A stretch of DNA of 21,919 nucleotides from a virus. Positions 5,537 to 21,919 of this stretch are shown here, piece after piece (positions within the stretch are counted from its first letter, which is position 1; each line of letters starts with the position of its first letter). The position numbers and the translations under genes were made by a program. The notes beneath the pieces are model-generated. The model had not been told where the DNA came from, searched no databases, and worked only from the letters and a program-made list of their open reading frames with translations. Location: IMG/VR virus record IMGVR_UViG_3300044491_003288, positions 1-21,919 of that record; one strand, 5' to 3'.

Positions 5537-6841
5537 TGTTAATTGTGAACCAGAAATAGCAAACTCATTAGAAGCAGTACAAACAATCGTACACATTCCT
5601 TTTGCTGCTATTGTTCTAGTTCCAGTTGCTGCATCAGCAGTATTATATAATGTAACTCCCGTACCTTGTACGACTGTATTATTACCACTAGAGACATTGA
5701 AGACTGAAATCATATCACCAGCAGTGAATATGTTTTGGTTGAGAGTAAGAGCAGAACCACTCCCTGATGATCTTATAATTTTCCCAGCATCACCAACAAC
5801 AAATGCATAGGCCCCAGACTGACCGTTAACTCCAAGTCTTCTCAGTGGACCTATTGAGTCGCTGACTGTGCCAGTAAATGTAGCAGCACCAGCTGCTGAT
5901 ATGGTAAGTCTTGTTGGTGCTCCACTACCAGTTCTACCACTTACAAACCTTAAATCTCCCTCAGAGTCAAGTGACCAACCATTACTATCATTATAAAAAC
6001 GTAATTTTCCAGTTGCATTACTAGTTTCAAAAAAGACGGGAGTTTGACCATCACCAGTTTTAAATACGTGAAGTGCGTTACCTGGAAGAACAGTTCCAAT
6101 ACCTACATCACCCGTAGAACGTACACGAAGTCTTTCACTACCATTAGTCTCTACTGTAAATGTATCAGCAGCAGGAAATCTTATAGCAGTATTTGTGTCT
6201 CCAGTGTGGATAATTTTGTCTGCAATTGATACATCACTTCTTGCAGTAATGATACCAACAGAATCAATGTTAGTTACATCTTCGTATGTAAGGACACCAC
6301 CAACATTAAGATTACCACTGACGGTAGCAGCACCACTTACATTAATACCAGTAGAGAATGTTGGAGCACCAGTTCCTGCTTTGTTAGTAAAGTTATCTGC
6401 CCTAACTCTTCCACCAGCACCTGAAAGTGGTGTAGTTCCTGCTGTAGATAGTCCTAAAATATCAGGAACAAAATCATCACCATCAGCAACAATAAAATCT
6501 ATTCCTGATTCAACAGAAATCTCTTCATATTGAGTATATGCAACATTACTATTAGATACATCAGGAACATCTACAGTGATGTTTCCAGCAATTCCTAATA
6601 TTTTATCAGTATAATAAATTACAGAACCTGGACCACTATCAGAAAGTGCTGTTCCTAATCCTGCACTTGCAACACCCTCAAGATTTGAACCATCACCATA
6701 AAATGCAGTTGCACTAACAATACCAGCAACATTTAACTTTGCTGTTGGATTCTCACTACCAAGACCAACACGACCAGTCGTTCCGTCAGCAGTAAAATTA
6801 GTTGGATTACTTAACCTTGATAGGTCGCGTGCTCTTGACAT
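5534..6841 (-). CDS. Tail-fibre-like virion protein (435 aa)
   Basis: The N-terminus (MSRARDLSRLSNPTNF..., then TGRVGLGSENPTAKLNVAG and YGDGSNLEG) is a typical marine phage fibre start. Residues 180-250 carry GVLTYEDVTNIDSVGIITAR and IIHTGDTNTAIRFPAADTF, shared almost unchanged with the S74 fibre. Residues 250-320 hold shaft-like 'ERLRVRSTGDVGIG' units. The last 110 residues (from about GPLRRLGVNGQSG to the end) resemble a globular C-terminal tip I recall from cyanophage structural proteins, with 'AGDMISVFNVSSGNNTVVQGTGVTLYNTADAATGTRTIAAKGMCTIV'-like order of strands; key pieces are YNTADAATGTRT and AKGMCTIVC. There is no S74 domain, so the tip probably stays attached. An AT-rich element with ACTAAATAACTAAAAAG precedes the ATG. 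Confidence 0.85.
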   Translation of the reverse strand: MSRARDLSRLSNPTNFTADGTTGRVGLGSENPTAKLNVAGIVSATAFYGDGSNLEGVASAGLGTALSDSGPGSVIYYTDKILGIAGNITVDVPDVSNSNVAYTQYEEISVESGIDFIVADGDDFVPDILGLSTAGTTPLSGAGGRVRADNFTNKAGTGAPTFSTGINVSGAATVSGNLNVGGVLTYEDVTNIDSVGIITARSDVSIADKIIHTGDTNTAIRFPAADTFTVETNGSERLRVRSTGDVGIGTVLPGNALHVFKTGDGQTPVFFETSNATGKLRFYNDSNGWSLDSEGDLRFVSGRTGSGAPTRLTISAAGAATFTGTVSDSIGPLRRLGVNGQSGAYAFVVGDAGKIIRSSGSGSALTLNQNIFTAGDMISVFNVSSGNNTVVQGTGVTLYNTADAATGTRTIAAKGMCTIVCTASNEFAISGSQLT

Positions 6842-6869: not shown

Positions 6870-7334
6870 CTAATGACCTGGTTCTTCAGGCCAATCTATG
6901 TTATGTGGGAAACCTTCTTGAGTTGTAATATCTCTCAGTTCTTGACGATACTGTCTCCATTCATCACTCATAATAACATCAGAACAACCCATCCAATCAG
7001 TTTTTGATATCAAACTATTTCTTTGAGTTCTAATATTCTCAGATACTTGAGTATCGATCCTTAATCTATATGAGTCCTCTTCTTCTTGATTAGTGAAGAT
7101 AGGCCCAATTACATACTTCTTAAACCACATACCTTTAATCTCCTCAACACCCTGTCTTACAACAGTTTCATATGGTGGAGTAACTTGTGGTTGTGCTCCC
7201 TCAAGAACTGCATCAATACCATATGAATCTAAAACATATGTTGGTAAAGGTTTAGGGAAAGATATATTTGGATACTTATAATAAAAATCTCTTTCACTGA
7301 TTACTTCACCAGTTTCTCTAATCCTTAGTTCCAT
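6870..7334 (-). CDS. Tail-fibre assembly chaperone-like protein (paralog)
   Basis: This 154-aa protein is a diverged paralog of the one at 582-1091. Shared segments are 'GVEEIKGMWFKKYVIGPIFT' (compare GIKEINGQWFTKFIVGPVFT), 'RTQRNSLISKTDWMGCSD', 'WRQYRQELRDI' and 'GFPHNIDWPEEP'. The N-terminus is different: MELRIRETGEVISERDFYYK, as in proteins that keep the whole chaperone fold. It lies three bases downstream of the 652-aa adhesin gene, the usual place for a chaperone devoted to the preceding fibre tip. Its coding sequence is AT-rich compared with the adhesin just upstream, so the pair may not have been inherited together. Substrate assignment is inferred from position. Confidence 0.8.
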   Translation of the reverse strand: MELRIRETGEVISERDFYYKYPNISFPKPLPTYVLDSYGIDAVLEGAQPQVTPPYETVVRQGVEEIKGMWFKKYVIGPIFTNQEEEDSYRLRIDTQVSENIRTQRNSLISKTDWMGCSDVIMSDEWRQYRQELRDITTQEGFPHNIDWPEEPGH

Positions 7335-7337
7335 ATA

Positions 7338-9296
7338 TTATGCGATTGCGAGGAAGATGTAAGTGCCGCCACTAGCGTTAAGAGCAGCGGGAGCAGTCGA
7401 TGTTACTGTAAATCCAGCATTAAGCGGGTCAATGTAGTCAGTAGTTGTGACTTCGGCGGCAGTGCTATTCAACAAGAGGTAAGGGTCATTACCACTTACA
7501 ATTCCACGAGCAGTATCCCAGAAATACCAATCACCAGTGGAGTCGGTACGTTTAATTAATACAAACCTTGCACCATTAGTAAATCCGCAGTCAACATTTA
7601 TTGCATTACCAGTACCAGTGTAACTACTTACTTTACTGATGCCGGGTAGGGTTGCGAATAGGAGGGCGATGTAGGTGCGACTTGATACGTTTACATCGTT
7701 ACCTGCATTGAGTGAAAACACAGAATTTGTGGGCCTTGTGTTGTTCCACGGTCCTGGGCTACCGGTAAGCGCCGCAAAGTTACGATCAAACTCCATGTAT
7801 TGATTTGCGCTGAGCTGAGCAGAGTACAGTACCCACGCAGACGCATCTGAACGGGTTTTAACAATCGTCAACTCCGGCGCCACACCAAGGTTATGGTTCA
7901 CCGTTCGCGCTACGCCCGTCCCCGTATAAGCAACTACATCAAAGAAACCTGGGGCACGTTTGAATCCAAATAAAATCTGCTGCAGAGCTCCTATCCCTCT
8001 GGTTCCTTGCATTTGTGTATTTGAATCAAAATCTGGTCCAGGTCCAAAGTTAATTTCAGCATCAGCACTGTTTATTCTTAGTGTCCGACCAGATCCTTGT
8101 AATCTGCTGAATGAAAAATTATCCCATGTATCACCAGTTGTTTTTTGCCACCCAAAATCAACAGGAAACCCAGTAGTGACATAAGTAGAATCAGATGGAA
8201 CAAGATTCACTGCAAACACTTCCGTCGCAGCCTCGGGCGGCTTATTCGGACGGCGGATTGCTATGTAGATGAAGGTTTCTCCAGACGTATTGACAACAGA
8301 ATACTGAGATGCAATTGGGTCTATTGTGAACCCAGTGGAATTAAAATCAACAAGATTTGTGCTGGGGTACATGTTTGCACCGCCCTCTTCTGTTGTCAAG
8401 TTTGCCGCGAGCATCACATCCGATCCCCCGGTCGTAACGCCACGCATATTGTCAAAGATTGCCCAGTTGGTAAAAGGAGACGTTACACCTGAAGCCTTTT
8501 TTACAAGCAGCCATTGCGGCTCCCATCCTAGGTTCACTGGAACCGCAGATGCTGAGCCCGTATAACTCCCACATTTAATAATGCTTTCATTACCACCCGT
8601 GCCAAACGATGCGTCGTCATGAGCAAAGATGTAGGCGACGTAGTCCTGCCCGGAGTAGTTGGTTACGCTCTGGACGGTAAACTCTGAAGCTGTCGGTGCG
8701 GTATTGGACCATGGCCCAGCTCCCGTGGAGGCAAAGTCTGTTGTATTTAAACGCAGGTACTTGGTTGGCCCTTCACTTGCGTGATACACGTACCAATCTG
8801 ATGTGTTACTAGTCGATTTCACAATCATCACGCCGGGTACGCTGCCCAAATTATGCGAAACAGTCCGTCCAGCTACACCATCTCCTGTATAAGTAACTAC
8901 ATCAAAGAAACCAGGCGCTTTGCGGAAGGACCAGGAAACCATATCCTCGCCAGGTGGATTGCCGTTGTTAAAGTTTAATCCAAGGCTAAATCCATTATTG
9001 TTAAAAGATGTAAGACTATATGTTGGAGAGCTGGTTAAGTCGTATTGTGCGCTAGTTTGATCACTCCGTAGATATTTTCTACCTCTTTCAGTGTCGAAGA
9101 CTAACTGCGCACCAGCCGAAGTCCTAGACTTAAGCCAAACCAATCCACCTTCACCGGCTAAATCAATTCCATTCGTAATTGTCTGTGCGCTGCCTGTACC
9201 GTCATACAAAAACGTACTAAAAACATCATCAACGTAAACCTTGTCTCCAGATGCTCCAGCAGCACCCATCATCATTGCTCTTGTTAAGTTACTCAT
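7338..9296 (-). CDS. Large fibre or adhesin with lectin-like repeats
   Basis: This 652-aa protein begins MSNLTRAMMMGAAGASGDKVYVDDVFST, an opening I recall from marine phage fibre proteins of the DUF7483 type (name from memory). Four related units are visible: around 130 (KAPGFFDVVTYTGDG, VSHNLGSVPGVMIVK), 240 (IIKCGSYTGSA, VNLGWEPQWLLVKK), 450 (RAPGFFDVVAYTGTG, VNHNLGVAPELTIVK) and 555 (GISKVSSYTGTG, FTNGARFVLIKR). In each a 'YTGTG' strand is followed by 'V.HNLG..P..(I/L)(I/L)VK' and an aromatic-rich segment, suggesting beta-sandwich, lectin-like folding. There is no S74 domain. Much of the DNA, mainly around 7640-7950 and 8210-8970, is clearly more GC-rich than the flanking genes, a sign of acquisition. 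It starts one base after the short fibre gene ends and precedes a fibre-assembly chaperone. Confidence 0.85.
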   Translation of the reverse strand: MSNLTRAMMMGAAGASGDKVYVDDVFSTFLYDGTGSAQTITNGIDLAGEGGLVWLKSRTSAGAQLVFDTERGRKYLRSDQTSAQYDLTSSPTYSLTSFNNNGFSLGLNFNNGNPPGEDMVSWSFRKAPGFFDVVTYTGDGVAGRTVSHNLGSVPGVMIVKSTSNTSDWYVYHASEGPTKYLRLNTTDFASTGAGPWSNTAPTASEFTVQSVTNYSGQDYVAYIFAHDDASFGTGGNESIIKCGSYTGSASAVPVNLGWEPQWLLVKKASGVTSPFTNWAIFDNMRGVTTGGSDVMLAANLTTEEGGANMYPSTNLVDFNSTGFTIDPIASQYSVVNTSGETFIYIAIRRPNKPPEAATEVFAVNLVPSDSTYVTTGFPVDFGWQKTTGDTWDNFSFSRLQGSGRTLRINSADAEINFGPGPDFDSNTQMQGTRGIGALQQILFGFKRAPGFFDVVAYTGTGVARTVNHNLGVAPELTIVKTRSDASAWVLYSAQLSANQYMEFDRNFAALTGSPGPWNNTRPTNSVFSLNAGNDVNVSSRTYIALLFATLPGISKVSSYTGTGNAINVDCGFTNGARFVLIKRTDSTGDWYFWDTARGIVSGNDPYLLLNSTAAEVTTTDYIDPLNAGFTVTSTAPAALNASGGTYIFLAIA

Positions 9297-9297
9297 A

Positions 9298-9981
9298 TCA
9301 ATTAACGTAATCTACTAGTGATGAACCTCTAAATCTTGTTCCACCATCATCGGTGATGAACATAAACAAGTGTGTCTTACCTGTTGTAAGTGTTGGTGCT
9401 GTATCTGCAGGGAACTTGACTGATGCTGGCCATGTTACAGTTCCACTTGTATGTGTTAGTTCTAATGTGAAAGCATATGCACAACCTGTTGGTACATTAG
9501 CAAAGGTGAATGTGCTATCACCACTAATAGTCTTTGTAAAGTAATTTCCTTGTGAACAATCAACCTCCAATGCACCCATTGCAGTGATGTTTTCTTTATA
9601 AGGTCCAGTTAGACTTACTCCTGCACCTATTGTAGAAATACCAGCAGTGACGACAATACCACCAGCATTAACTCTTACTCCAGTTTGTGCAGTTACAATA
9701 CCAACAGAATCAACGTTCGTTACATCTTCATAAGTTAGGACACCAGTGAATGTAGCACCAACACCAGTAATGTTTCTGACTGCGATGTCTGGTGTTCCAG
9801 TTATTCCCTGTGCGTTGGTTGCAGTAGTAGCAGTAGTTGCAGTAGTAGCAGTAGTTGCAGTAGTAGCATTACCACTAAATGTCGTAGCAGTAGCAACACC
9901 AGTTACAACTACACCATTAGGAAACAGAGGAGCACCTGTAGCTTCTCTATCAACAATTCTATCAGCTCTAATTCTCGACAT
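9298..9981 (-). CDS. Short tail-fibre-like protein (227 aa)
   Basis: The protein has the shared fibre start MSRIRADRIVDREATGAPLF, 'GVVVTGVATATTFSGN', a low-complexity run of about five ATT tripeptides (residues 38-56), then GVLTYEDVTNVDSVGIVTAQ near residue 85. The last 100 residues (from ENITAMGALEVDCSQGNYF to the end) form a different C-terminal domain with 'KTISGDSTFTF' and 'GGTRFRGSSLVDYVN', which I recall as a recurrent tip in cyanophage structural proteins. It is the first gene after the terminator at 10014-10047 and so opens a new transcription unit that runs to 4186. The TGA is one base before the next ATG. It may be a short fibre or a collar/whisker-type decoration. Confidence 0.85.
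   Translation of the reverse strand: MSRIRADRIVDREATGAPLFPNGVVVTGVATATTFSGNATTATTATTATTATTATNAQGITGTPDIAVRNITGVGATFTGVLTYEDVTNVDSVGIVTAQTGVRVNAGGIVVTAGISTIGAGVSLTGPYKENITAMGALEVDCSQGNYFTKTISGDSTFTFANVPTGCAYAFTLELTHTSGTVTWPASVKFPADTAPTLTTGKTHLFMFITDDGGTRFRGSSLVDYVN
9821..9868 (-). repeat. In-frame tandem repeat coding for Ala-Thr-Thr
   Basis: An 18-bp unit (gcagtagtagcagtagtt on the plus strand) occurs about two and a half times, each built from two nearly identical 9-bp units. It codes for ATT tripeptides, a flexible linker after the N-terminal fibre module. Unit length is a multiple of three, so gains or losses would change linker length without a frameshift. Confidence 0.8.
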
Positions 9982-10069: not shown

Positions 10070-11878
10070 TTATTGTCTAATCAAGATTTTTGTGTCTGAT
10101 ATAGAAGTACCAGCAACTACTGATGGATCACCAGCAGAAGTGGCAAGAGTACCATTTCCTTGAACATAGTATGTCTTAGCAGTGGTAAGACCAGTTTGAC
10201 CACTATTAACTCCACCTAAAACATTGATTTTACCAGTTGCCGTATTAGAAATTGCTTCTGCTGCAATACCAATATAGTTTTCTGCAGTTAGGTTTGTTGA
10301 TAAAGTATCAGTAGTAATGACCGCATATGTGACATAGTTAGAGTTACCACTATCCTGATAAGCAACAACTGTTTTTTCATTAGTAGAGTCATATACACAT
10401 GAGATGTAGTTACTACCATTAGTATTAAACACTGTCTCATTACTAAAACTAATACTAGTGCCAGATACAGTACCATTTATTACTGTTCCATTACCAGCAT
10501 CATTATAAGCAATAACTACTTTATTCTTAGTAGAGTCAAATGTTATTCTACTGTAATTAGTATTGGCAGTATTAAATACTGCAGCAGTACCAAAACTAAT
10601 ACTAGTACCTGATACAGTACCTACAATTGCTGTACCATAGCTAGAGTTACCATTATCCTTATAAGCAATAACTACTTTTTGGTTAGTGGAGTCATATGTT
10701 GCTGAACCAACCTCGACGTTTTCAGATTCAAATACAACAGGAGTGCCAAAACTAATACTAGTTCCACTTACTGTCCCAACTACTGCTGTTCCATAGTTAG
10801 AGTTTCCCTGATCTCGATAAGCAATTACTACTTTACCATTAGTAGAGTCAAATGCACATGATTCAAATCCAGTACTTCCACTGTTAAATACTGCCTTAGA
10901 ACCATAACTGATACTAGTACCAGATACAGTACCAACTAGTGCTGTGCCACGAGTACCATTGCCATTATCTGAGTAAGCAATAACTACTTTACCATTAGTG
11001 GAATCAAATGTTGATGTGATGTAATCAATATTATTAGTTTCAAATACTACCTTAGTGCCAAAACTAATACTAGTACCAGATACAGTTCCAACAATTGCTG
11101 TGCCATCAGAACTGCTACTACTATCCGTATAAGCAATAACTACTTTTTCATTGGTAGAGTCATATACACATGAGATGTAGGATGGAAAACCACCACTATT
11201 AAAGGTTACTTCAGAACCAAAAGTAATATTAGTGCCAGATACAGTACCAACTCTTGCTCTACCATCACTATTTAAATTTCCATATGCAACAATTACTTTA
11301 TTGTTGGTAGAGTCATATGCACATCCCGTGCTATAAGTCGCTAAACTAGCAACTGAAACTGAGGAACCACTACTTGGATCTGCAGAACCAGATAAAGTAA
11401 CAATACCAACAGTCCCATCTGTTTTGATAATTACTGTTTGACCATTACCAATGTCACCACTTGCAACAAAATTTTGTGTTCCAAGTTCAATACCAGATAA
11501 TTGTGATCCATCTCCATAATAAGTAGCAATTCCACTAACTGCGGAAACACTTTGTCCTGCTCCTATTCTAATACCACTTCTTGCCGTTATAAGACCAACA
11601 GAATCAACATTAGTTACATCGTCATACGTTAAAACACCACCAACTGATACATTACCACTAAATGTAGAAACACCAGTAACTACTATGCCAGATGTATTTG
11701 CTTGTACTTTTATATTACCACCAGAGTCTTTTAGTGCAGTAGCATCAATACCACTTAGTCCGCTGGCATTACCACTAAGACTGGTAGCGGTAACAACACC
11801 AGTTACAACAATTCCAGATGGTGCTCCAATAGCACCACCTGTTCTATTTTTTATATTGTCAACGAATAATTGTGACAT
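10070..11878 (-). CDS. Propeller fibre paralog 6 (last of the array)
   Basis: The 602-aa protein has an N-terminal module (1-170: MSQLFVDNIKNRTGGAIGAP, GVLTYDDVTNVDSVGLITAR, YYGDGSQLSGIELG), seven blades (about 172-528) and a C-terminal module (529-602, NLTAENYIGIAAEAIS to KILIRQ). Six of the seven blades end in a 'GTVSGT(S/N)I(S/T)(F/Y)' turn, the fourth strand of the unit 'YDSTN.KVVIAY.D.GNS.YGTA'. The seventh blade leads into the C-terminal module instead. Its first 100 codons are identical in DNA to those of the next paralog upstream, while the 'IELGTQNFVAS' joint matches the far paralog at 19280-21142, so it looks mosaic. No S74 domain or membrane segment is present. The protein is probably a virion-attached receptor-binding or cell-surface-binding fibre; no homolog function is known to me. 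Confidence 0.88.
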   Translation of the reverse strand: MSQLFVDNIKNRTGGAIGAPSGIVVTGVVTATSLSGNASGLSGIDATALKDSGGNIKVQANTSGIVVTGVSTFSGNVSVGGVLTYDDVTNVDSVGLITARSGIRIGAGQSVSAVSGIATYYGDGSQLSGIELGTQNFVASGDIGNGQTVIIKTDGTVGIVTLSGSADPSSGSSVSVASLATYSTGCAYDSTNNKVIVAYGNLNSDGRARVGTVSGTNITFGSEVTFNSGGFPSYISCVYDSTNEKVVIAYTDSSSSSDGTAIVGTVSGTSISFGTKVVFETNNIDYITSTFDSTNGKVVIAYSDNGNGTRGTALVGTVSGTSISYGSKAVFNSGSTGFESCAFDSTNGKVVIAYRDQGNSNYGTAVVGTVSGTSISFGTPVVFESENVEVGSATYDSTNQKVVIAYKDNGNSSYGTAIVGTVSGTSISFGTAAVFNTANTNYSRITFDSTKNKVVIAYNDAGNGTVINGTVSGTSISFSNETVFNTNGSNYISCVYDSTNEKTVVAYQDSGNSNYVTYAVITTDTLSTNLTAENYIGIAAEAISNTATGKINVLGGVNSGQTGLTTAKTYYVQGNGTLATSAGDPSVVAGTSISDTKILIRQ

Positions 11879-12127
11879 CTTGTGATATTTTTAGTTATTT
11901 ATATCTTATCTGACTAAGATTTTTGTATTTGAAATAGCAGTACCAGCAACTACTGATGGATCACCAGCAGAAGTGTCAAGAGTACCATCATTTTGAACAT
12001 AATATGTTTGTGCTGTTGTGAGTCCAGTTTGACCTGTATTTACTCCACCTAGAATATTTACTTTACCAGTTGCTCCATTAGAAATTGCTTCTGCTGCAAT
12101 ACCAATATAGTTTTCTGCAGTTAGGTT
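11571..12127. repeat. 557-bp direct repeat, copy 1
   Basis: Base-for-base identical, as read by eye, to 13404-13960. It covers the last 74 codons of one propeller gene, the intergenic promoter element and the first 100 codons or so of the next. Identity stops at 12128/13961 and just before 11571/13404. Confidence 0.9.
11896..11903 (-). promoter_or_regulatory. Late promoter box before propeller paralog 6
   Basis: A perfect TATAAATA followed by ACTAAAAATATCAC, 17 bases before the ATG. It lies inside the 557-bp repeat, immediately after the stop of the gene upstream. Confidence 0.6.
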
Positions 12128-13711
12128 GGTTACTAAACTACTATTAGTAAAAACAGCTGCTGTACCATAAGAATAGTTGTCCACATCCGAATAAGCAATA
12201 ACTGTTTTTTCATTATGACTATCATATGCCGCACTAACCCAAGAAACTATAGCACTTTCAAATACAACTTCACTACCAAAACTAATACCAGTCCCACTCA
12301 CAGTTCCTTGAATTGCTGTTCCATAATTAGAATTGCCGCCATCTCTATAAACAATAACTACTTTGTTTTCAGTAGAATCAAATGTAATTCCTGGAAAAGA
12401 AGTTGAAGCATTATTAAATATAGCAGGAGTACCAAAACTAATACTAGTTCCACTCACAGTTCCCACAACTGCTTTACCTTCGTAAATGTTAGCAGAATTA
12501 TTATAAACAATAACTAATTTATTATTAGTAGTGTCAAATGCACTTGACATTCTGCTGATGATAGTACCAGGATCAAATGCAACTTCACTACCAAAACTAA
12601 TTGATGTGCCACTTATAGTGCCAACTATTGCTGTGCTAGTATTACTATTAGTACTATCGATATAAGCAATAACTACTTTGCCATTGCCAACAGATGTAGC
12701 TTTAATACTATAAGTATTAGCATTAAATTGAGTAGGACTACCAAAACTAATTGATGTGCCACTTACTGTTCCAACAATTGCTAAAGCAGTATTATTACTT
12801 TCATTTTTATAAGCAATAACTACTTTATCGTTAGTGCTGTCATAAGCGATTGATTCATAAGAAGCAAAAACTGATTGGAATACAACTTCACTACCAAAAG
12901 AAATGCTAGTACCAGATACAGTTCCAACAATTGCTGTTCCATAACTAGAGTTTCCACCATCACTATAAGTGACAACTACTTTTCCACTCCCGACAAACGC
13001 TACCGAAAGACTTCCAGTATTACCAGCATTAAACACTACCTCACTACCAAAACTAATGCTAGTCCCTGAAACTGTGCCAACAATAGCTGTGCCATGTCCA
13101 GAGTTGCCATCGTCCGTATAAACAACAACTACTTTGTTGTTGGTTGAGTCAAATACTACATCTGGTGTGGAATTGCCAGCATTAAATACAACAGGAGTAC
13201 CAACAGATGGATTTGCAGAACCTGTTGCAGTAACAACACCAACAGTTCCATCAGTGTTAATGACTACTGTAGCACCATTAGGAATAGTACCACTTGCTAC
13301 AAAATTACCAACACCAGACTCAACACCAGTAAGTTGTGATCCATCACCATAATATGTAATTATCCCACTGACCGCACTTATACTTTGACCTACACCAATT
13401 TTAATACCACTTCTTGCCGTTATAAGACCAACAGAATCAACATTAGTTACATCGTCATACGTTAAAACACCACCAACTGATACATTACCACTAAATGTAG
13501 AAACACCAGTAACTACTATGCCAGATGTATTTGCTTGTACTTTTATATTACCACCAGAGTCTTTTAGTGCAGTAGCATCAATACCACTTAGTCCGCTGGC
13601 ATTACCACTAAGACTGGTAGCGGTAACAACACCAGTTACAACAATTCCAGATGGTGCTCCAATAGCACCACCTGTTCTATTTTTTATATTGTCAACGAAT
13701 AATTGTGACAT
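11906..13711 (-). CDS. Propeller fibre paralog 5
   Basis: The 601-aa protein shares the paralog layout. Its seven blades vary: blades 2 and 4 use 'VGSGKVVV' or 'VGNGKVVIAY' in place of 'DSTN.KVVIAY', and blade 5 has 'YNNSANIYEGKAVV' where most have 'GNS.YGTA'. The turns 'GTVSGTSISFG' are almost unchanged. Both gene ends lie in copies of the 557-bp repeat: its start matches paralog 6 and its end matches paralog 4, so only the propeller and the joint before it are private to this gene. The joint reads 'SGVGNFVASGTIPNGATVV', as in paralogs 2 and 4 of the array. The AT-rich coding DNA and late promoter box match its neighbours. Confidence 0.88.
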   Translation of the reverse strand: MSQLFVDNIKNRTGGAIGAPSGIVVTGVVTATSLSGNASGLSGIDATALKDSGGNIKVQANTSGIVVTGVSTFSGNVSVGGVLTYDDVTNVDSVGLITARSGIKIGVGQSISAVSGIITYYGDGSQLTGVESGVGNFVASGTIPNGATVVINTDGTVGVVTATGSANPSVGTPVVFNAGNSTPDVVFDSTNNKVVVVYTDDGNSGHGTAIVGTVSGTSISFGSEVVFNAGNTGSLSVAFVGSGKVVVTYSDGGNSSYGTAIVGTVSGTSISFGSEVVFQSVFASYESIAYDSTNDKVVIAYKNESNNTALAIVGTVSGTSISFGSPTQFNANTYSIKATSVGNGKVVIAYIDSTNSNTSTAIVGTISGTSISFGSEVAFDPGTIISRMSSAFDTTNNKLVIVYNNSANIYEGKAVVGTVSGTSISFGTPAIFNNASTSFPGITFDSTENKVVIVYRDGGNSNYGTAIQGTVSGTGISFGSEVVFESAIVSWVSAAYDSHNEKTVIAYSDVDNYSYGTAAVFTNSSLVTNLTAENYIGIAAEAISNGATGKVNILGGVNTGQTGLTTAQTYYVQNDGTLDTSAGDPSVVAGTAISNTKILVR

Positions 13712-13960
13712 CTTGTGATATTTTTAGTTATTTATATCTTATCTGACTAAGATTTTTGTATTTGAAATAGCAGTACCAGCAACTACTGATGGATCACCAG
13801 CAGAAGTGTCAAGAGTACCATCATTTTGAACATAATATGTTTGTGCTGTTGTGAGTCCAGTTTGACCTGTATTTACTCCACCTAGAATATTTACTTTACC
13901 AGTTGCTCCATTAGAAATTGCTTCTGCTGCAATACCAATATAGTTTTCTGCAGTTAGGTT
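13404..13960. repeat. 557-bp direct repeat, copy 2
   Basis: Second copy of the junction repeat, offset 1833 bp from the first. It covers the end of the gene at 13739-15547, the late promoter element and the start of the gene at 11906-13711. Confidence 0.9.
13729..13736 (-). promoter_or_regulatory. Late promoter box before propeller paralog 5
   Basis: A perfect TATAAATA followed by ACTAAAAATATCAC, 17 bases before the ATG, identical to the copy at 11896-11903. Confidence 0.6.
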
Positions 13961-15547
13961 TGTTACAATTGCTGATGGTTTATAAACAACAGTAGCACCA
14001 CTACCAGAATTGTTATCCCACCTGAATCCTATCACCATTGCATTTTGATCTGGATCATACACCATTCCTGGATATTCCTCCGACGTATTTCCACTAAAAA
14101 CAAGCACTTCATCTCCAAAACTAATTGTGTCTCCACTTATAGATGCTTCTCGAAGACCACTATTTGCACCTCTATAAACTATGATGGTTTTTGCTGAAAT
14201 TGGATGATATTCTACTGCTACTTGTGATGTAGATGCACTACTAAACACTTGTGGACCAGCAAAAGAAATTGATGTGCCACTTACAGTTCCAACAATTGCT
14301 GTTCCATGATCACCGCTGCTCTCATCAACATAAACAACAACTACTTTTTCATTTGCAGAATCATAAGATACTGCAATGTCAGTACTGTTTATTGCTCCAG
14401 ACTCAAATAGTGTTTCAGACCCAAAACTGATTGACGTGCCAGATACAGTTCCTACAATTCCTTTACCTTTATTAGAATCACTATTATCTTTATAAACAAT
14501 AACTACTTTTTGGGAAGCTACATCGTATACAATATCTTTTCCATAGACTCTTCCACTATCAAATGTTGCTTCACTTCCAAAAGAAATTGATGTTCCAGAT
14601 ACAGTTCCAACTATAGATTTCCCTACATAAGAACTAGTATTTGTACTATAGACAATTACAACTTTTTGTGCATTTTCATCATAGGTAATCCTTGGCCAAT
14701 CACATGTTTCACTTGTAAATTGCACTTCACTTCCAAAACTGATTGATGTGCCACTTACGGTTCCAACTTTAGCATAACCTGTGTTGTCTTCACCTCTATA
14801 AACATAGACTACTTTACCAGTATTTGAATCGTAACAGATATCGTGATACGATACATTTGTGTTGATTGCTTGTACATTAGTTCCAAAAGAAATTGATGTC
14901 CCTGAAACTGTTCCTACTTTTGCGTCGGAATCGAGTCCTGTAGAACTTACATATACAAATACTACTTTGTCATTAGCAGTATCATATGTTCCTCTTACAT
15001 CTGTCATGACATCACTAGTTAATACTGTAGGAGGACTAGTAAAAGTTGTTCCAGCACCAGCAGTTGCAACACCTGTTACAGTTCCATCTGCTTTAATGAT
15101 TACTGTGGCACCATTAGGAATAGTACCACTTGCTACGAAGTTACCAACACCAGACTCAACACCAGTAAGTTGTGATCCATCACCATAATATGTAATTATC
15201 CCACTGACCGCACTTATACTTTGACCTACACCAATTTTAATACCACTTCTTGCGGTTATAACACCAACAGAATCAACATTTGTTACATCTTCATAAGTCA
15301 GTGTTTTGCCAACTGATACATTACCACTAAATGTAGAAACACCAGTAACTACTATACCAGATGTATTTGCTTGTACTTTTATATTACCACCAGAGTCTTT
15401 TAGTGCAGTAGCATCAATACCTGTAAGTGATGCTCCAGAACCAACAAAACTTGTTGCAGTAATAACACCAGTGACAACTATTCCAGATGGAGCTTCAATA
15501 GCACCATCCAATTTATTTTTTATATTGTCAACGAATAATTGTGACAT
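13739..15547 (-). CDS. Propeller fibre paralog 4 (most divergent blades)
   Basis: This 602-aa paralog has the shared ends but the least regular propeller. Seven blades can still be counted by the 'KVV.VY' strand and 'SGTSISFG' turn. Most lack the common 'GNS.YGTA' segment (for example VYVSSTGLDSDAKVG, VYRGEDNTGYAKVG), and blade 6 is short, with 'EASISGDTISFGD' in place of the usual turn. Blade 7 contains 'DPDQNAMVIGFRWDNNSGSG'. The N-terminal module uses 'FVGSGASLTGIDATALKD' and 'VGKTLTYEDVTNVDSVGVITAR', closer to the paralogs at 17406 and 19280 than to its downstream neighbour, whereas its C-terminal module is identical to that neighbour's. The protein therefore appears assembled from differently inherited parts, and its ligand may differ most from the others. 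Confidence 0.87.
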   Translation of the reverse strand: MSQLFVDNIKNKLDGAIEAPSGIVVTGVITATSFVGSGASLTGIDATALKDSGGNIKVQANTSGIVVTGVSTFSGNVSVGKTLTYEDVTNVDSVGVITARSGIKIGVGQSISAVSGIITYYGDGSQLTGVESGVGNFVASGTIPNGATVIIKADGTVTGVATAGAGTTFTSPPTVLTSDVMTDVRGTYDTANDKVVFVYVSSTGLDSDAKVGTVSGTSISFGTNVQAINTNVSYHDICYDSNTGKVVYVYRGEDNTGYAKVGTVSGTSISFGSEVQFTSETCDWPRITYDENAQKVVIVYSTNTSSYVGKSIVGTVSGTSISFGSEATFDSGRVYGKDIVYDVASQKVVIVYKDNSDSNKGKGIVGTVSGTSISFGSETLFESGAINSTDIAVSYDSANEKVVVVYVDESSGDHGTAIVGTVSGTSISFAGPQVFSSASTSQVAVEYHPISAKTIIVYRGANSGLREASISGDTISFGDEVLVFSGNTSEEYPGMVYDPDQNAMVIGFRWDNNSGSGATVVYKPSAIVTNLTAENYIGIAAEAISNGATGKVNILGGVNTGQTGLTTAQTYYVQNDGTLDTSAGDPSVVAGTAISNTKILVR

Positions 15548-15564
15548 CTTATGGTATTTCTAGT

Positions 15565-15572
15565 TATTTATG
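15565..15572 (-). promoter_or_regulatory. Late-promoter-like box before propeller paralog 4
   Basis: CATAAATA followed by ACTAGAAATACCAT, 17 bases before the ATG. One base differs from TATAAATA. Confidence 0.5.
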
Positions 15573-15574
15573 TC

Positions 15575-17386
15575 TTATCTGACTACGATTTTTGTGTCTG
15601 AGATCGCAGTACCAGCAACTACTGATGGACTACCAGCAGAAGTGCCAAGAGTGCCATCTGTTTGAACAAAATATTTTTGTGCTGTTGTGAGTCCAGTTTG
15701 ACTCTTATTAGTTCCAGTGACAACATTGATTTTACCAGTTGCTCCATTAGATATTGCTTCTGCTGCTATTCCAATATAGTTTTCTGTTGTTAAATTGGTT
15801 GTTTGACTTGTAGCACTAAAAACAACTGCTGTCCCGTAAGAAGAGTTTCCATTATCATCGTATGCAATAACTACTTTTTGATTGGTAGAATCATATGTTG
15901 CTGAAATGTATTCAGCTTCAGCAGATTCAAATACTGTCTCACTACCAAAACTAATTGATGTACCGGATACAGTTCCTGTAATTACTGTTCCATAATTGAT
16001 ATTTCCATTGTCCTTATAAGCGATAACTACTTTATTGGCAGCAGAATCATATGCTGCTCCAACAAAAGATGTCGCACCTGAATTATATAAAACAGGAGTG
16101 CCAAAACTTATAGATGTTCCACTAACAGTTCCCACAACTGCTGTCCCGTAAGAAGAGTTTCCATTATCATCGTATGCAATAACTACTTTTTGATTGGTAG
16201 AATCATATACGGATGAAATGTAACCGGTACTAGCAGATTCAAATACTGTCTCACTACCAAAACTAATACTAGTGCCAGATACAGTTCCAACAATTGCTGT
16301 TCCATAACTAGAGTTTCCACCATCACTATAAGCAATAACTACTTTATTATTAGCAGAATCATATGCTGCTCCAACAAAAGATGTCGCACCTGAATTATAT
16401 AAAACAGGAGTGCCAAAACTAATTGATGTTCCACTTACGGTTCCAACAACTGCTGTCCCATAATTTGAATTTCCTCGATCCCTATAAGCAATAACCACTT
16501 TATTATTAGTAAAGTCATATACTATTGCAATGTTGTCAGTATTGGCAGATTCAAATACAACAGCAGAACCAAAACTAATTGATGTACCACTTACAGTACC
16601 TACGATTGCTGTTCCATTTAAACTTACCTCATCTTTATAAGCAATAATTACTTTTTCGTTACTGGAGTCATATGTTAATGAAAAATTAGTAGCAGCGCCA
16701 GCAAATGCAACAGGAGTGCCAAAACTAATTGATGTGCCTGATACAGTTCCTACAACTGCTGTTCCATAAGTAGAGTTTCCATAATCCGTATAAGCGATGA
16801 CTACTTTCCCATTAGTGGGATCATATGTTGCTGAATTATAAGTAACTTGAGCAGATTCAAATACAGCAGGAGTACCAGCACTTGGAGTATTAGAAGTTGA
16901 TAAAGTAACAATACCAACAGTTCCATCAGTATTGATAACTACTGTTTGTCCATTAGCAATAGTACCACTCGCAACAAAATTAACTACACCAGATTCAACC
17001 CCAGATAATTTTGATCCATCACCATAGTAAGTAACAATCCCACTGACTGCAGAGATACTTTGTCCTGCACTAACTTTAATCCCATCTCTTGCTGTTATGA
17101 TACCAACAGAATCAACATTAGTTACATCTTCATATGTTACTACACCACCTACAGAAACATTGTCAGTGAATGTGGATACACCAGTAACAACAATTCCAGA
17201 GGTATTTCCCTGAACCTTTACATTACCACCAGAGTCTTTTAGTGCAGTGGCATCAATACCACTTAGTCCGCTGGCACTACCAACAAAACTTGTTGCAGTA
17301 ATAACACCAGTTACAACAATTCCAGATGGTGCTCCAACAGCACCACCTGATCTACTTGTTATATTGTCAACTAATACCTCTGACAT
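15575..17386 (-). CDS. Propeller fibre paralog 3, with internal two-blade duplication
   Basis: The 603-aa protein starts MSEVLVDNITSRSGGAVGAP and has the most uniform propeller of the array: nearly all blades read 'YDS.N.KVVIAY.D.GNS.YGTA(V/I)VGTVSGTSISFG'. Blades 4-5 and 6-7 are recent copies of each other; 'PVLYNSGATSFVGAAYDSA' and 'YDSTNQKVVIAYDDNGNSSY' occur twice, 312 bp apart, and long stretches of DNA are identical. The joint reads 'SGVVNFVAS', and the C-terminal module is the 'GKINVVTGTNKSQTG' variant, also present in the paralog at 19280 but not in the four others, which have 'LGGVN(T/S)GQTG'. Expression should be late, from the box at 17403-17410. Confidence 0.88.
   Translation of the reverse strand: MSEVLVDNITSRSGGAVGAPSGIVVTGVITATSFVGSASGLSGIDATALKDSGGNVKVQGNTSGIVVTGVSTFTDNVSVGGVVTYEDVTNVDSVGIITARDGIKVSAGQSISAVSGIVTYYGDGSKLSGVESGVVNFVASGTIANGQTVVINTDGTVGIVTLSTSNTPSAGTPAVFESAQVTYNSATYDPTNGKVVIAYTDYGNSTYGTAVVGTVSGTSISFGTPVAFAGAATNFSLTYDSSNEKVIIAYKDEVSLNGTAIVGTVSGTSISFGSAVVFESANTDNIAIVYDFTNNKVVIAYRDRGNSNYGTAVVGTVSGTSISFGTPVLYNSGATSFVGAAYDSANNKVVIAYSDGGNSSYGTAIVGTVSGTSISFGSETVFESASTGYISSVYDSTNQKVVIAYDDNGNSSYGTAVVGTVSGTSISFGTPVLYNSGATSFVGAAYDSAANKVVIAYKDNGNINYGTVITGTVSGTSISFGSETVFESAEAEYISATYDSTNQKVVIAYDDNGNSSYGTAVVFSATSQTTNLTTENYIGIAAEAISNGATGKINVVTGTNKSQTGLTTAQKYFVQTDGTLGTSAGSPSVVAGTAISDTKIVVR
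15822..16105. repeat. Internal two-blade duplication, copy 1
   Basis: Blocks at 15822-15896 and 16041-16105 recur nearly unchanged 312 bp to the right (104 codons, two blades of 52 aa). The DNA between the blocks differs at scattered sites. Confidence 0.8.
16134..16417. repeat. Internal two-blade duplication, copy 2
   Basis: Second copy of the two-blade unit in the 603-aa propeller gene, matching 15822-16105 with an offset of 312 bp in both identical blocks. Confidence 0.8.
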
Positions 17387-17402
17387 CTTATTACTTTTTA
17401 GT

Positions 17403-17410
17403 TATTTATG
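17403..17410 (-). promoter_or_regulatory. Late-promoter-like box before propeller paralog 3
   Basis: CATAAATA followed by ACTAAAAAGTAATAAG, 16 bases before the ATG. The stop codon of the gene upstream (17406-17408) is inside the box. Confidence 0.5.
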
Positions 17411-19259
17411 ATTTCCATACTAAGACTTTTGTAGATGATATAGCAGTACCAGCAACTACTGATGGATTACCAGCAGAAGTAGCAAGAGTACCATCATTTT
17501 GAACATAATATGTTTGTGCTGTTGTTAATCCAGTTTGACCTGTGTTTACTCCACCTAAAATGTTTATCTTACCAGTTGCTCCATTAGCAATTGCTTCTGC
17601 TGCTATTCCAATATAGTTTTCTGCAGTTAGATTGGTTGATTGAGATGTTGATGTAATAACAACTGCTTCTCCAGTTGCCGCAGCCCTGTAAGCATGAACT
17701 ACTTTACCAGCATTGCTGTCAAATGTACTACCTTCTTCACCATAGTAGATCTGACCAGATTTGAACACAACAGGAGTACCAAAACTAATTGTTGTGCCAC
17801 TAACAGCTCCATCAATTGCTGTTCCACTTCCACTATTATCATTATCTGCATAATTTATATGCATTCTCTGTGTTGTAGAGTTATAAGCCATTGAAATATA
17901 GTTAACAGCACTATCAAATTCAACTGGGGTACCAAAACTAATACTGGTCCCACTTACTGTACCAACAGCAGCTTTTCCAGCATTGCCGTCATTTTGATCG
18001 GCATATGCAACTACTATTTTGTTATTTGTAGAATCAAACTCTCCATGAATATCATAACAATCAATATTAGCAATAACAACTTCACTACCAAAACTAATTG
18101 ATGTACCAGATATGCTTCCTATTATTGCTGTTGGATAGCTATTGTTTCCGTTATCTTCATAGACAACAACTGCTTTAACAGCATTAGAATCCCATGTAAC
18201 ATCAAGATCAGAAGTATTAGAATCATTGAATCGTGTTTGACTGCCAAAACTAATGCTATTTCCACTTACAGTTCCAACAATTGCATATCCATGATAACTA
18301 TTACTACCATCTCTATAGACAATGACTACTTTACCACTTTCGGTATATGTCATTCTCATTGGATTGGCATTATTGCTTATGAATGTTGTAGGTGAACCAA
18401 AACTAATACTGGTTCCACTTACTGTTCCAACAATTGCTCGACCTCTGGTATTAGTACTATCATAATAAGCAATAACTACTTTATTACTATTACTATCAAA
18501 AACGATAGAGTTATAATTAGAATCAACAGAAGCATAAACAACAGCAGCACCAAAACTAATTGTTGTGCCACTTACAGTTCCAACAATTGCTGTTCCATAG
18601 TTACTATTACCATTATCTTCCCAAGCAATAACTACTTTATTTGAATTACTATCAAATGTTGCTGAAATCCAATTACATGTTGCATTCTCAAATGTTACTG
18701 GAGAACCAGCAGAAGTAGGAGTACCGGATACTGCAACGGGTGTAACAGTTCCATCTGCTTTAATGATTACTGTGGCACCATTAGGAATAGTACCACTTGC
18801 TACGAAGTTACCAACACCAGACTCAACACCAGTAAGTTGTGATCCGTCACCATAATATGTAACAATTCCACTGACTGCACTTACACTCTGTCCTGCACCA
18901 ATTCTAATACCACTTCTTGCGGTTATGAGACCAACAGAATCAATGTTAGTTACATCTTCATATGTTAGTGTACCACCTACAGAAACATTACCACTGAAAG
19001 TTCCGGTAGTTCCTGTTATATTACCACTAAAAGTAGTTGCAGTTGCAACACCAGTAACCACTATACCAGAAGTATTTGCTTGTACTTTTACATTACCTCC
19101 AGAGTCTTTTAGTGCAGTAGCATCAATACCTGTGAGTGATGCTCCAGAACCACTAAAACTAGTAGCAGTTATAACACCAGTTACAACGACACCATCAGGA
19201 AATGTTGGAGAAGATCCTGCGGTCTCTCCTCTTAAATTACTTACTCTTAAACCTGACAT
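17406..19259 (-). CDS. Propeller fibre paralog 2
   Basis: This 617-aa protein starts MSGLRVSNLRGETAGSSPTF, a different attachment end from the MSQLFVDNI paralogs. It is about 16 aa longer because the N-terminal module holds an extra 'GNITGTTGTFSGNVS' segment, shared with the paralog at 19280. The seven blades are quite diverse: 'VVIAWEDNGNSNYGTA' in blade 1, 'YTESGKVVIVYRDGSNSYHG' in blade 3, 'RMHINYADNDNSGSGTA' in blade 6, and 'EGSTFDSNAGKVVHAYRAA' in blade 7. The C-terminus ends KVLVWKS. The joint 'SGVGNFVASGTIPNGATVIIK' is nearly the same as in paralog 4. The stop lies within the late promoter box of the next gene, so the junction is under selection for both. Confidence 0.88.
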   Translation of the reverse strand: MSGLRVSNLRGETAGSSPTFPDGVVVTGVITATSFSGSGASLTGIDATALKDSGGNVKVQANTSGIVVTGVATATTFSGNITGTTGTFSGNVSVGGTLTYEDVTNIDSVGLITARSGIRIGAGQSVSAVSGIVTYYGDGSQLTGVESGVGNFVASGTIPNGATVIIKADGTVTPVAVSGTPTSAGSPVTFENATCNWISATFDSNSNKVVIAWEDNGNSNYGTAIVGTVSGTTISFGAAVVYASVDSNYNSIVFDSNSNKVVIAYYDSTNTRGRAIVGTVSGTSISFGSPTTFISNNANPMRMTYTESGKVVIVYRDGSNSYHGYAIVGTVSGNSISFGSQTRFNDSNTSDLDVTWDSNAVKAVVVYEDNGNNSYPTAIIGSISGTSISFGSEVVIANIDCYDIHGEFDSTNNKIVVAYADQNDGNAGKAAVGTVSGTSISFGTPVEFDSAVNYISMAYNSTTQRMHINYADNDNSGSGTAIDGAVSGTTISFGTPVVFKSGQIYYGEEGSTFDSNAGKVVHAYRAAATGEAVVITSTSQSTNLTAENYIGIAAEAIANGATGKINILGGVNTGQTGLTTAQTYYVQNDGTLATSAGNPSVVAGTAISSTKVLVWKS

Positions 19260-19276
19260 GGATTTATATTTTTAGT

Positions 19277-19284
19277 TATTTATG
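19277..19284 (-). promoter_or_regulatory. Late-promoter-like box before propeller paralog 2
   Basis: CATAAATA followed by ACTAAAAATATAAATCC, 17 bases before the ATG. It contains the stop codon of the upstream gene (19280-19282). A second similar box, TATAAATC, lies nearer the ATG (19261-19268). Confidence 0.5.
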
Positions 19285-21142
19285 ATTTTTGCACTATGAT
19301 TTTTGTATCTGAAATAGCAGTGCCAGCAACTACTGATGGATTACCAGCAGAAGTAGCAAGAGTACCATCATTTTGAACATAATATGTTTGTGCTGTAGTA
19401 AGTCCAGTTTGACTCTTATTAGTTCCAGTGACAACATTGATTTTACCAGTTGCTCCATTAGATATTGCTTCTGCTGCTATTCCAATGTAGTTTTCTGTAG
19501 TTAAGGTGGTTGTTATTGTGATAGAAGTATCAATGATAACTGCTGTTCCATAGTTAGAGTTACCTCCATCCCGATAAACAACAACTACTTTTTTATTAGT
19601 GGAGTCATATGTTGCTGAAACATAACTAGTATTAGCAGAGTTAAATACGACAGGAGTATCAAAACTAATTGATGTACCACTTACGGTTCCAGTAACTACT
19701 GTTCCATAGTCAGAATTATCACTATCCTTATAAGCAATAACTACTTTATCATTAGTAGAGTCATATGTTGCTGAAATCTCGAAAGTAGAAGCACTCTCAA
19801 ATACAACAGGAGTACCAAAACTGATATTAGTACCAGATACAGTACCAATGATTGCTTTTCCATAGTTAGAGTCTGTTTGATCCCTATAAGCAATAACTAC
19901 TTTACCATTGGTGGAGTCAAATGTGGTTGAGAATCGTCTGTCACCAGCAGTGGAATTGCTATACACAACTTCAGAACCAAAACTGATACTAGTACCAGAT
20001 ACAGTACCAACTATTGCTGTTCCATACTGAGAGTTACCAACATCCTGATAAACAATAACTATTTTACCATTGGTGGAGTCAAATGTGGATGAGAAGGCGT
20101 TAGTTTCTGCACTATTAAATGTAACTTCACTACCAAAACTAATACTAGTACCACTTACAGTTCCAACTCTTGCTTTACCATAGTTAGAGCTACCCCTATA
20201 AGCAATAACTACTTTACCACTACCAACAAATGTGGTTGTGGCGTATTCAGCTGTTGTACTAAATACTGCTTCACTACCAAAACTGATACTAGTTCCTGAA
20301 ACTGTACCTACAATTGCTGTTCCATAATAAGAGTTGCCATCATCCCTATAAGAAATAACTACTTTATTGTTGCTAGAGTCATATGCACATGAGTTGTAGT
20401 AACTAGCTGCACTATTATACACTACTTCAGAACCAAAACTGATACTATTACCAGATACAGTACCAACTATTGCTGTGCCATAGTTAGAGTTACCAGCATC
20501 TGCATAAACAATAACTACTTTACCATTAGTAGAGTTATATGCACATGAAATGTCTTGAGTACTTCCACTATTAAATACTACTTCAGTGCCAGCAGTTGGG
20601 CCAACAGTTGATTGAGTGATAGTACTTACAGTCCCATCTGCTTTAATTATTACTGTTGCACCATTAGGAATAGTACCACTCGCAACAAAATTTTGTGTTC
20701 CAAGTTCAATACCAGATAATTTTGATCCATCACCATAGTAAGTAACAATCCCACTGACTGCAGAGATACTTTGTCCTGCACCAATTTTAATACCTGCTCT
20801 AGCAGTAACAACACCGACAGAATCAATATTAGTTACATCTTCATAAGTCAGTGTTTTGCCAACTGATACATTACCACTAAAGGTTCCTGTAGTTCCTGTT
20901 ATATTACCACTAAATTGTGTAGCACTAGAAACTCCAGTTATACTAACTCCAGAGGTATTTCCTTGTACCTTTACATTACCACCAGAGTCTTTTAGTGCAG
21001 TAGCGTCAACACCACTTAGTCCACTACCATCACCAACAAAACTTGTTGCAGTTGCAATACCAGTAATAATTGCACCATCAAGTAATGATGGAGAAGTTCC
21101 TACTTTTCTACCCCTTAAACTTGCAACTCTTAAGTCAGACAT
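19280..21142 (-). CDS. Propeller fibre paralog 1 (first of the array)
   Basis: The 620-aa protein begins MSDLRVASLRGRKVGTSPSL. I use the ATG at 21140-21142; a TTG one codon upstream is in frame but unlikely. The TGA of the gene upstream shares a base with this ATG (TGATG), so there is no separate promoter and translation should be coupled. Seven blades follow the common pattern, with a shorter blade 3 (VGSGKVVIAYRGSSNYGKARV). The joint is 'SGIELGTQNFVASG', as in paralog 6, while the C-terminal module is the 'VVTGTNKSQTG' type of paralog 3, with the end KIIVQKS like that of paralog 2. These mixtures argue for exchange across the array. The product is a probable virion fibre or decoration protein. 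Confidence 0.88.
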   Translation of the reverse strand: MSDLRVASLRGRKVGTSPSLLDGAIITGIATATSFVGDGSGLSGVDATALKDSGGNVKVQGNTSGVSITGVSSATQFSGNITGTTGTFSGNVSVGKTLTYEDVTNIDSVGVVTARAGIKIGAGQSISAVSGIVTYYGDGSKLSGIELGTQNFVASGTIPNGATVIIKADGTVSTITQSTVGPTAGTEVVFNSGSTQDISCAYNSTNGKVVIVYADAGNSNYGTAIVGTVSGNSISFGSEVVYNSAASYYNSCAYDSSNNKVVISYRDDGNSYYGTAIVGTVSGTSISFGSEAVFSTTAEYATTTFVGSGKVVIAYRGSSNYGKARVGTVSGTSISFGSEVTFNSAETNAFSSTFDSTNGKIVIVYQDVGNSQYGTAIVGTVSGTSISFGSEVVYSNSTAGDRRFSTTFDSTNGKVVIAYRDQTDSNYGKAIIGTVSGTNISFGTPVVFESASTFEISATYDSTNDKVVIAYKDSDNSDYGTVVTGTVSGTSISFDTPVVFNSANTSYVSATYDSTNKKVVVVYRDGGNSNYGTAVIIDTSITITTTLTTENYIGIAAEAISNGATGKINVVTGTNKSQTGLTTAQTYYVQNDGTLATSAGNPSVVAGTAISDTKIIVQKS

Positions 21143-21840
21143 CAAAGAGCACCAATGTCAAGCACATCAATAACCATAGTCTTACCTGTGCCAACTGTAA
21201 CAGCCACACCAGAGTTAATCTCAATATTAGGACTGACACTCACAATAATTGATGTATTAACACCAGCATTTGTAGCATCAAGAAGTAAATTTTCATTTAC
21301 TTGAACATATCTATCAATATAACTGAATGGAGAATCTGTGGCACCATCAGAGTATTTAATAGCAGTTCCTAAACCACCTCCTCCACCGCCACCAGCAATA
21401 CTAATATTAACAGTATCTCCATCCATGGCAAATGTATTGCCAGCACCAATGAAGTTTAGTGTTTTTGCAGCACCAACAACAGTTCCTGTTGATTGAATAC
21501 CAATAGCAGCACCAGTAAGGGTGCCAGTAACAGTTAAATCACCCTGAATGGTTTGTGATGCTTCTGCAGAAACAATTGCATCAGCAACTCTAAAGTCATC
21601 AAAGACTTGGAATTCTAATGTATCACTTAAGTTTGCTGGAGATAATAGGGTAACACTAGACCCATCTCTTGCAGTAAAGTCTGCACCATCTGCAAGTCTT
21701 ACACCATTGCGAAAGACGGCAATGGCATTTATTCTATAACCACCAGTGACCGTAAACAGAGTTTGATCTGCTGTTGCAGTAACACTGATGGATTTAGACG
21801 CAACATTATTGGTTAATGTAATTGGATTTCCAATCGCCAT
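21142..21840 (-). CDS. Virion structural (fibre-like) protein, 232 aa
   Basis: The N-terminal 85 residues (MAIGNPITLTNNVASKSISV, 'FTVTGGYRINAIAVFRNGVRL', 'DFTARDGSSVTLLSPANLSD') resemble a beta-sandwich domain that I recall at the start of marine phage structural proteins. It is followed by a short shaft-like part (IQGDLTVTGTLTGAAIGIQSTG), a run of seven glycines near residue 153, and a C-terminal beta-rich domain ending IDVLDIGAL. The glycine run is a flexible hinge. It stands first in the transcription unit with the six propeller genes and is coupled to the first of them, so it may be the part that anchors them to the baseplate or neck. That role is an inference from position. No Shine-Dalgarno sequence is seen before the ATG. 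Confidence 0.85.
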   Translation of the reverse strand: MAIGNPITLTNNVASKSISVTATADQTLFTVTGGYRINAIAVFRNGVRLADGADFTARDGSSVTLLSPANLSDTLEFQVFDDFRVADAIVSAEASQTIQGDLTVTGTLTGAAIGIQSTGTVVGAAKTLNFIGAGNTFAMDGDTVNISIAGGGGGGGLGTAIKYSDGATDSPFSYIDRYVQVNENLLLDATNAGVNTSIIVSVSPNIEINSGVAVTVGTGKTMVIDVLDIGAL

Positions 21841-21845
21841 TATTA

Positions 21846-21919
21846 TTAATCGTTTTTTCTATTTATAATCAAACCAGTCCAACCTTTATGAGTTTTTCTT
21901 TCACCAGAAACAACAGGGA
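21846..21919 (-). CDS. C-terminal end of an unidentified ORF (partial)
   Basis: One minus-strand frame is open from the right edge to a TAA at 21846-21848 and would end the protein with PVVSGERKTHKGWTGLIINR and three more residues. The 'SGERKTHKGW' pattern recalls the end of small DNA-binding or homing-endonuclease-associated proteins in cyanophages, which is weak evidence from memory. Its last codons overlap the late promoter box of the next gene. Only 24 codons are visible; the other two frames also have stops in this stretch, so the call is tentative. Confidence 0.4.
   Translation of the reverse strand, partial: PVVSGERKTHKGWTGLIINRKND
21860..21867 (-). promoter_or_regulatory. T4-type late promoter box for the structural protein and propeller array
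   Basis: A perfect TATAAATA, extended as TTATAAATAGAAAAAACG on the minus strand, lies 19 bases before the ATG of the 232-aa protein. The TATAAATAGAA form also precedes the S74 fibre gene and the split HNH-like gene, and differs from the ATAAATAACTAAAAA form within the array. Confidence 0.75.

Follow-up and report, generated by a model that had tools for sequence, protein, structure and literature searches.

A viral array of six paralogs with predicted seven-bladed propellers, candidate exchangeable receptor-binding fibre tips

Introduction

Phage proteins tipped with propellers are already known. The receptor-binding protein (gp45) of Staphylococcus phage phi11 carries on a trimeric stem a five-bladed propeller platform, the presumed receptor-binding site (PMC4901313), and phiKZ gp131, a baseplate periphery protein belonging to a paralog family, has a C-terminal seven-bladed propeller (PDB 4GBF; PMC4901313, PMC5105663). 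Mobility of fibre genes is also described, in that tail-fibre modules have moved between distantly related marine phages, as in Alteromonas phages A5 and V22 (PMC10579305). Here we analyse the window, the whole 21,919-nucleotide stretch that makes up positions 1 to 21,919 of IMG/VR virus record IMGVR_UViG_3300044491_003288. Six neighbouring paralogs, A1 to A6, lie on its minus strand between positions 10070 and 21142 and encode proteins of 601-620 residues, each predicted to bear a seven-bladed propeller.

The phi11 protein resembles the proposed window tips in joining a stem to a propeller, but it has five blades, is encoded by one gene, has tower domains after the propeller and gave no detectable sequence relation. 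With phiKZ gp131 the window proteins share both a seven-bladed propeller on a phage protein and a cluster of adjacent paralogs (gp131-135). However, gp131 matches its paralogs gp133-135 only within its first ~390 residues, hence by sequence phiKZ has no multi-propeller array and gp131-135 did not hold up as a precedent for one. Comparison of gp131-135 with the window genes by repeat hidden Markov model (HMM) and blastp likewise gave no meaningful similarity. In A5 and V22 it is a fibre-chaperone module that moves, whereas the window family appears to swap a single folded ring inside conserved ends, both within and between phages. An earlier note on this DNA, made from the letters alone, knew of no described system of this form. 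This stands for the multi-propeller array, of which we found no description in the open-access literature searched, but not for single propeller-tipped phage proteins, which are known from phi11 and phiKZ gp131 (PMC4901313).

Results

All six array genes encode a stem, a propeller and a C-terminal module. They are A1 (10070-11878, 602 residues), A2 (11906-13711, 601 residues), A3 (13739-15547, 602 residues, with the most divergent propeller), A4 (15575-17386, 603 residues, the paralog chosen for modelling), A5 (17406-19259, 617 residues) and A6 (19280-21142, 620 residues if begun at the ATG; the open reading frame list uses an upstream TTG at 21145). A2 to A6 are 56-68% identical to A1 and the ends are near-constant. 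An HMM built from the repeats of A1-A6 found exactly seven repeats of ~52 residues in each paralog, 42 in total, at 27-89 bits per repeat, a pattern that is far beyond chance. Six full repeats of each protein close with a GTVSGTSISFG turn (36 turns in the six paralogs), and the seventh stops after its third strand, without the turn and the outer strand. Stem residues 1-146 match annotated cyanophage tail fibres in tblastn searches; a PHROG scan of three window paralogs matched no family. Thus the tandem paralogs with common ends, the count of seven repeats each and the fibre-like stem, all put forward in the earlier note, withstood closer analysis.

A4 was modelled by AlphaFold2 with 40 related sequences, and the other five paralogs were assigned to the same fold from their 56-68% identity and their seven repeats. 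Residues 1-164 (16895-17386, minus strand) comprise the fibre-like stem and the N-terminal half ('ASGTIANGQTVVINTDGTV') of a module that brackets the propeller, the C-terminal half of which (NYIGIA...YFVQ.DGTL...VVAGTAIS) occupies residues 529-603 (15578-15802). The intervening residues 165-528 (15803-16894) are predicted to form a closed ring of seven four-stranded blades, with a predicted local distance difference test (pLDDT) score of ~97 over most of the domain and regular strand repeats. DSSP assignments suggest that an N-terminal strand completes the last blade. The earlier note had expected such a closed propeller, and no open solenoid was seen.

By VIA-align 2 the A4 model superimposes on Escherichia coli YncE with a Z score of 32.7 (root-mean-square deviation 2.5, 305 residues aligned) and on the propeller lectins BP39L, PLL and PHL with Z scores of 29-32. 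All four we take to be seven-bladed propellers. The lectins thus share the architecture of A4 but not its sequence. No sequence match was found and identities to YncE and the lectins are only 8-12%, which denotes a shared fold rather than demonstrated kinship. Cyclophilin-like Pfam matches on the repeats were discarded, as they concerned one protein and a ~40-residue stretch scoring just over the cut-off and conflict with the modelled propeller.

The DA and BC loops of propellers sit on one face. Per-column entropy over the 42 window blades peaks in these two loops, D-to-A and B-to-C, and has its minimum in the C-to-D turn. The excess of DA/BC over AB/CD entropy is 1.39 bits in the window (permutation p 0.0006) and 1.23 bits in 1,152 blades of the family (p 0.0003), p-values that serve only as a guide because the loop borders were drawn from DSSP and the alignment after the data had been seen. 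Hence the proposal of a fixed blade count with variable sequence gains a location for the variability, the CD turn staying constant. Position within the ring was considered as a determinant of blade sequence and rejected: blades at the same position across paralogs are 50% alike versus 48% for others.

The blade count extends beyond the window. Among 136 distinct complete proteins from IMG/VR and phage records, the window's six included, seven repeats were found in 110 and fourteen in 12; as these relatives are not phylogenetically independent, the count is given without a p-value. The other 14, mostly divergent proteins or ones in which a single repeat escaped detection, include proteins with at least one divergent repeat below threshold (such as L103, L027 and L028, whose lengths fit seven; L and G labels are ours), the long divergent L136, L144 and L174, and an apparent fragment of 267 residues, L110. 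In the 14-repeat proteins repeats 7 and 8 are spaced 57-108 residues apart, compared with a median of 52 elsewhere. One of these (L018, 9992-12550) models as two rings, residues ~36-399 and ~427-784 (Z scores of ~30 and 34.7), joined by a linker of low confidence. Repeat number is clearly not free to vary but quantised at 7 or 2x7. The earlier note would have been contradicted by counts ranging freely from three to ten, and no such range was seen. The fragment (L110, 7277-8077) seems to be a slot II propeller gene cut to four repeats, either a broken gene or an assembly error. Long divergent proteins (L142, L149, L136, L144 and L145; ~840-1,795 residues, some open-ended) also carry numerous weaker copies of the repeat and possibly hold several rings per chain.

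A distant homolog is found in a cultured phage, Lentibacter phage vB_LenP_ICBM2, as the uncharacterized protein A0A3G2YRE6 (AYP28108.1; Foldseek E 7e-26), encoded between two tail assembly chaperones. It differs from the array in being a single gene, and of its repeats, too divergent to count, the repeat HMM finds four.

In nearly all relatives an 'ASGxIxxGxxVxxNxDGTV' segment lies on the N-terminal side of the propeller and a 'YIGIA...YFVQxDGTL...AGTAIS' segment on its C-terminal side (for the former the search pattern proved too strict, and the remainder were judged by eye). L024, which lacks both, has the propeller alone behind a separate stem gene. Many podovirus-type contigs contain three adjacent propeller genes, each slot having its own N-terminal peptide; one such contig (G007) has a terminase that shares 92% identity with its counterpart in Roseobacter phage CRP-603 and 74% with the one in HMO-2011. 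Many three-gene arrays (L018, L019, L023, L086, L119 and others) also have a conserved gene of ~87 codons (MKTIVETSTKLSKYLLADD...) between slots I and II.

Comparison of slots separates the history of the ends from that of the rings. Within the podovirus-type group of L089 and L093, proteins of the same slot have N-termini 82% and C-termini 88% identical, versus 35% and 57% for different slots, whereas the propellers are 45% identical whether the slot is the same or different. Orthologous slots of the related phages L012 and L088 agree over the first 60 residues (93-100%) and the C-terminus (68-100%) with propellers only 20-63% identical. For propellers the figure is 57-93% when L012 slot III is set against L088 slot I. 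Conversely, L019_8214 and L023_8505 have propellers 97% identical but different ends, and 25 of the 41 propeller pairs at least 70% identical have different ends. The cyanophage-type stem of L009 and the podovirus-type ends of L087 accompany propellers that are 73% identical. These patterns indicate that whole propellers have been exchanged between slots, and between cyanophage-type and podovirus-type phages, while slot-specific ends persisted.

The window preserves what looks like the same process at closer range. From the start codon onwards A1 and A2 are identical for 310 bases, and A2 and A3 have an identical 222-base tract at the 3' end; both are signs that adjacent copies exchanged DNA recently. 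The longest stretches of DNA identity among window paralogs (310, 222, 113 and 101 bases) all lie in the ends; within the propellers there is a single identical tract of at least 40 bases, and it joins different blades. If recombination is anchored in the ends, rings would be transferred as entire units, and the count of seven blades would thereby be preserved. On the idea of a diversity-generating retroelement we looked for an RVT_1 reverse transcriptase and found none in 15 records, which may be fragments. A scan of genome contigs for a cellular source, with patterns that did not cover the repeats, returned only one contig, from a Prochlorococcus metagenome-assembled genome, which matched the stem; the propeller may thus still have a bacterial source.

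The motif ATAAATAACTA stands directly upstream of the A1-A5 starts and nowhere else in the window (5 found versus 0.06 expected). It corresponds to the T4-late-type core NATAAATA, which is the late-promoter core of cyanophage S-PM2 (PMC2984593). The five motifs, all on the minus strand, are at 11892-11903 before A1 (TATAAATAACTA), 13725-13736 before A2, 15561-15572 before A3, 17399-17410 before A4 and 19273-19284 before A5. A6 alone lacks its own motif and abuts an upstream tail-fibre-like gene that is preceded by TATAAATA (21860-21867). HATAAATA sites are all on the coding strand (11 of 11), although their number by itself is modestly above chance. The earlier note had placed the array in one transcription unit, which seems partly wrong: given a T4-late-type motif at five of the six genes, the array is likely to consist of several late units, with read-through possible.

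Outside the array the window holds fibre genes, again on the minus strand. The tail-fibre-like gene upstream of A6 (21142-21840, 232 residues) matches phrog_18345, tail fiber, and a gene of this kind also stands before the array in L010, L012 and L088. Downstream of the array are two stem-plus-tip pairs. In the first a fibre-stem-like protein of 227 residues (9298-9981) is the upstream partner of a DUF7483 tip-like protein of 652 residues (7338-9296). In the second a fibre-stem-like protein of 435 residues (5534-6841) precedes a 351-residue WD40-like propeller (4464-5519), an unrelated second type with seven ~46-residue repeats. The stem genes starting at 9981 and 6841 are preceded by the near match CTAAATAACTA; the tip genes behind them are not. 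Between the pairs is a 154-residue gene (6870-7334) that by eye resembles the last of these neighbours, a tail fibre assembly chaperone-like protein (582-1091, PF16778). The remaining gene encodes a fibre protein ending in an S74 (chaperone of endosialidase) domain (1653-3707), with TATAAATA upstream. Hence the array lies in a tail context, among fibre genes and a fibre chaperone.

The other two tip domains recur in HMO-2011-type phages, where DUF7483 or WD40-like domains can occupy the propeller position, which follows the tail genes. In roseophage CRP-603 the tail-fibre gene is followed by one whose protein matches DUF7483, and a WD40 protein of exactly 14 repeats is encoded near a tail assembly chaperone in the HMO-2011-like record MW202701 (L178, 11384-13528). 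Judging by these placements, all three tip domains seem to play a single role, whichever of the two phage types carries them. Counts of 7 or 2x7 thus appear again in the unrelated WD40-like repeat family (window 4464-5519; L178 11384-13528). Fibre units of two genes, first the stem and then the tip, also occur in L024 (8993-11080), L010, L162 and L029. The tip gene often opens with a short peptide resembling KKESP, together with a run rich in glycine (for example MKENFKKESPLLGLEGSGGG), and the tip is DUF7483-like in those checked and a propeller in L024.

The window has no taxonomic marker gene; the best matches to its stem and fibre sequences come from Synechococcus phages. Array-bearing L010 belongs to a T4-like contig with genes for single-stranded DNA-binding, baseplate wedge and head-closure proteins, and the L024 contig is that of a cyanophage by apparent psbA, psbD and talC products read by eye. 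A 110-kb contig with a lone propeller tip (L170, 7814-19567; L171) contains, by eye, a long run of sugar-nucleotide and glycosyltransferase-like genes.

Discussion

We think it likely that the six proteins are interchangeable receptor-binding fibre tips diversified by whole-ring recombination, a function that we infer from fold, context and pattern of variation. Each gene would encode a tail-fibre protein in which an N-terminal stem is followed by a propeller inserted between the halves of a small bracketing module. The propeller would be displayed as an exchangeable tip, with the conserved ends docking the protein at its place in the virion, and the variable DA/BC loop face would meet a host surface ligand, most likely a glycan. 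Tail location, receptor binding, trimerisation and joint display of several tips are all parts of this proposal that would follow if it is correct. Diversity would come from point changes in the loops and, above all, from recombination within the conserved ends, by which entire propellers move between slots and between phages, the 2x7 forms arising where two rings are strung together. The array would hold several specificities, and as most genes have their own late-type promoter several tips are probably made in one infection. Swapped rings most likely change which bacterial surfaces are gripped.

Several points weigh against this proposal. The stem (residues ~1-130) has low pLDDT when modelled as a monomer, although this is expected because the stem may fold only as a trimer. 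A search of Protein Data Bank sequences gave no match for A4 at E <= 10 and none by profile at E <= 1; with no solved-structure relative by sequence, the glycan ligand is only an analogy drawn from the fold. Descent of duplicated genes may in part account for the promoter motifs before A1-A3. Finally, a very similar sequence pattern would be expected of head fibres or of another form of surface display.

The last point leads to the possibility that the propellers are virion surface proteins other than tail tips, namely head fibres or decorations keeping the phage close to cell surfaces or mucus-like polysaccharide without determining infection. Short podovirus-type relatives of ~485 residues without the long stem would suit such a role. 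However, the neighbours of the array are fibre proteins and a tail-fibre chaperone, the matching position in HMO-2011-type phages comes after tail genes, and the ICBM2 homolog is flanked by tail assembly chaperones, so we hold this to be unlikely. It is also rather improbable that only one or a few of the six genes function, the rest being a silent recombination reservoir or recent duplicates going to decay. The long identical tracts between copies, which show recent exchange, speak for such a reading, but all six genes are open and full-length with seven blades kept, five have their own late-type motif, and many relatives have arrays of three genes with slot-specific ends. That the propellers are enzymes rather than binders, sialidase-like or other glycan-degrading depolymerases, is brought to mind by Foldseek matches that include sialidases and the glycoside hydrolase BT3686 and by phage tailspikes that use propellers as enzymes (endosialidases; PMC4901313), but seems similarly improbable given that no enzyme family matched in domain scans, that the best structural matches are YncE and lectins, and that the loops that would carry a catalytic site are the most variable positions.

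Returning to receptor-binding tips, the most interesting part is whole-ring exchange rather than the propeller tip as such. The family shows a constant number of blades alongside a varying loop face, and the pattern suggests a concrete evolutionary mechanism, exchange of whole rings anchored in conserved ends. A broader picture, which we offer tentatively and would not yet bet on, is a cassette system of marine phages. In it seven-bladed propellers of two unrelated repeat families (single or 2x7) and DUF7483 would be interchangeable tips on slot-specific ends, exchanged whole between slots, genomes and morphotypes and shown several at once to give multi-specific virions. Marine cyanophages and HMO-2011-type phages are abundant, yet their host-recognition proteins are mostly unannotated, and the propeller family offers candidate receptor-binding domains. 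If the tip proposal is true, the loop face should predict ligand specificity, and the family has a cultured relative in Lentibacter phage ICBM2.

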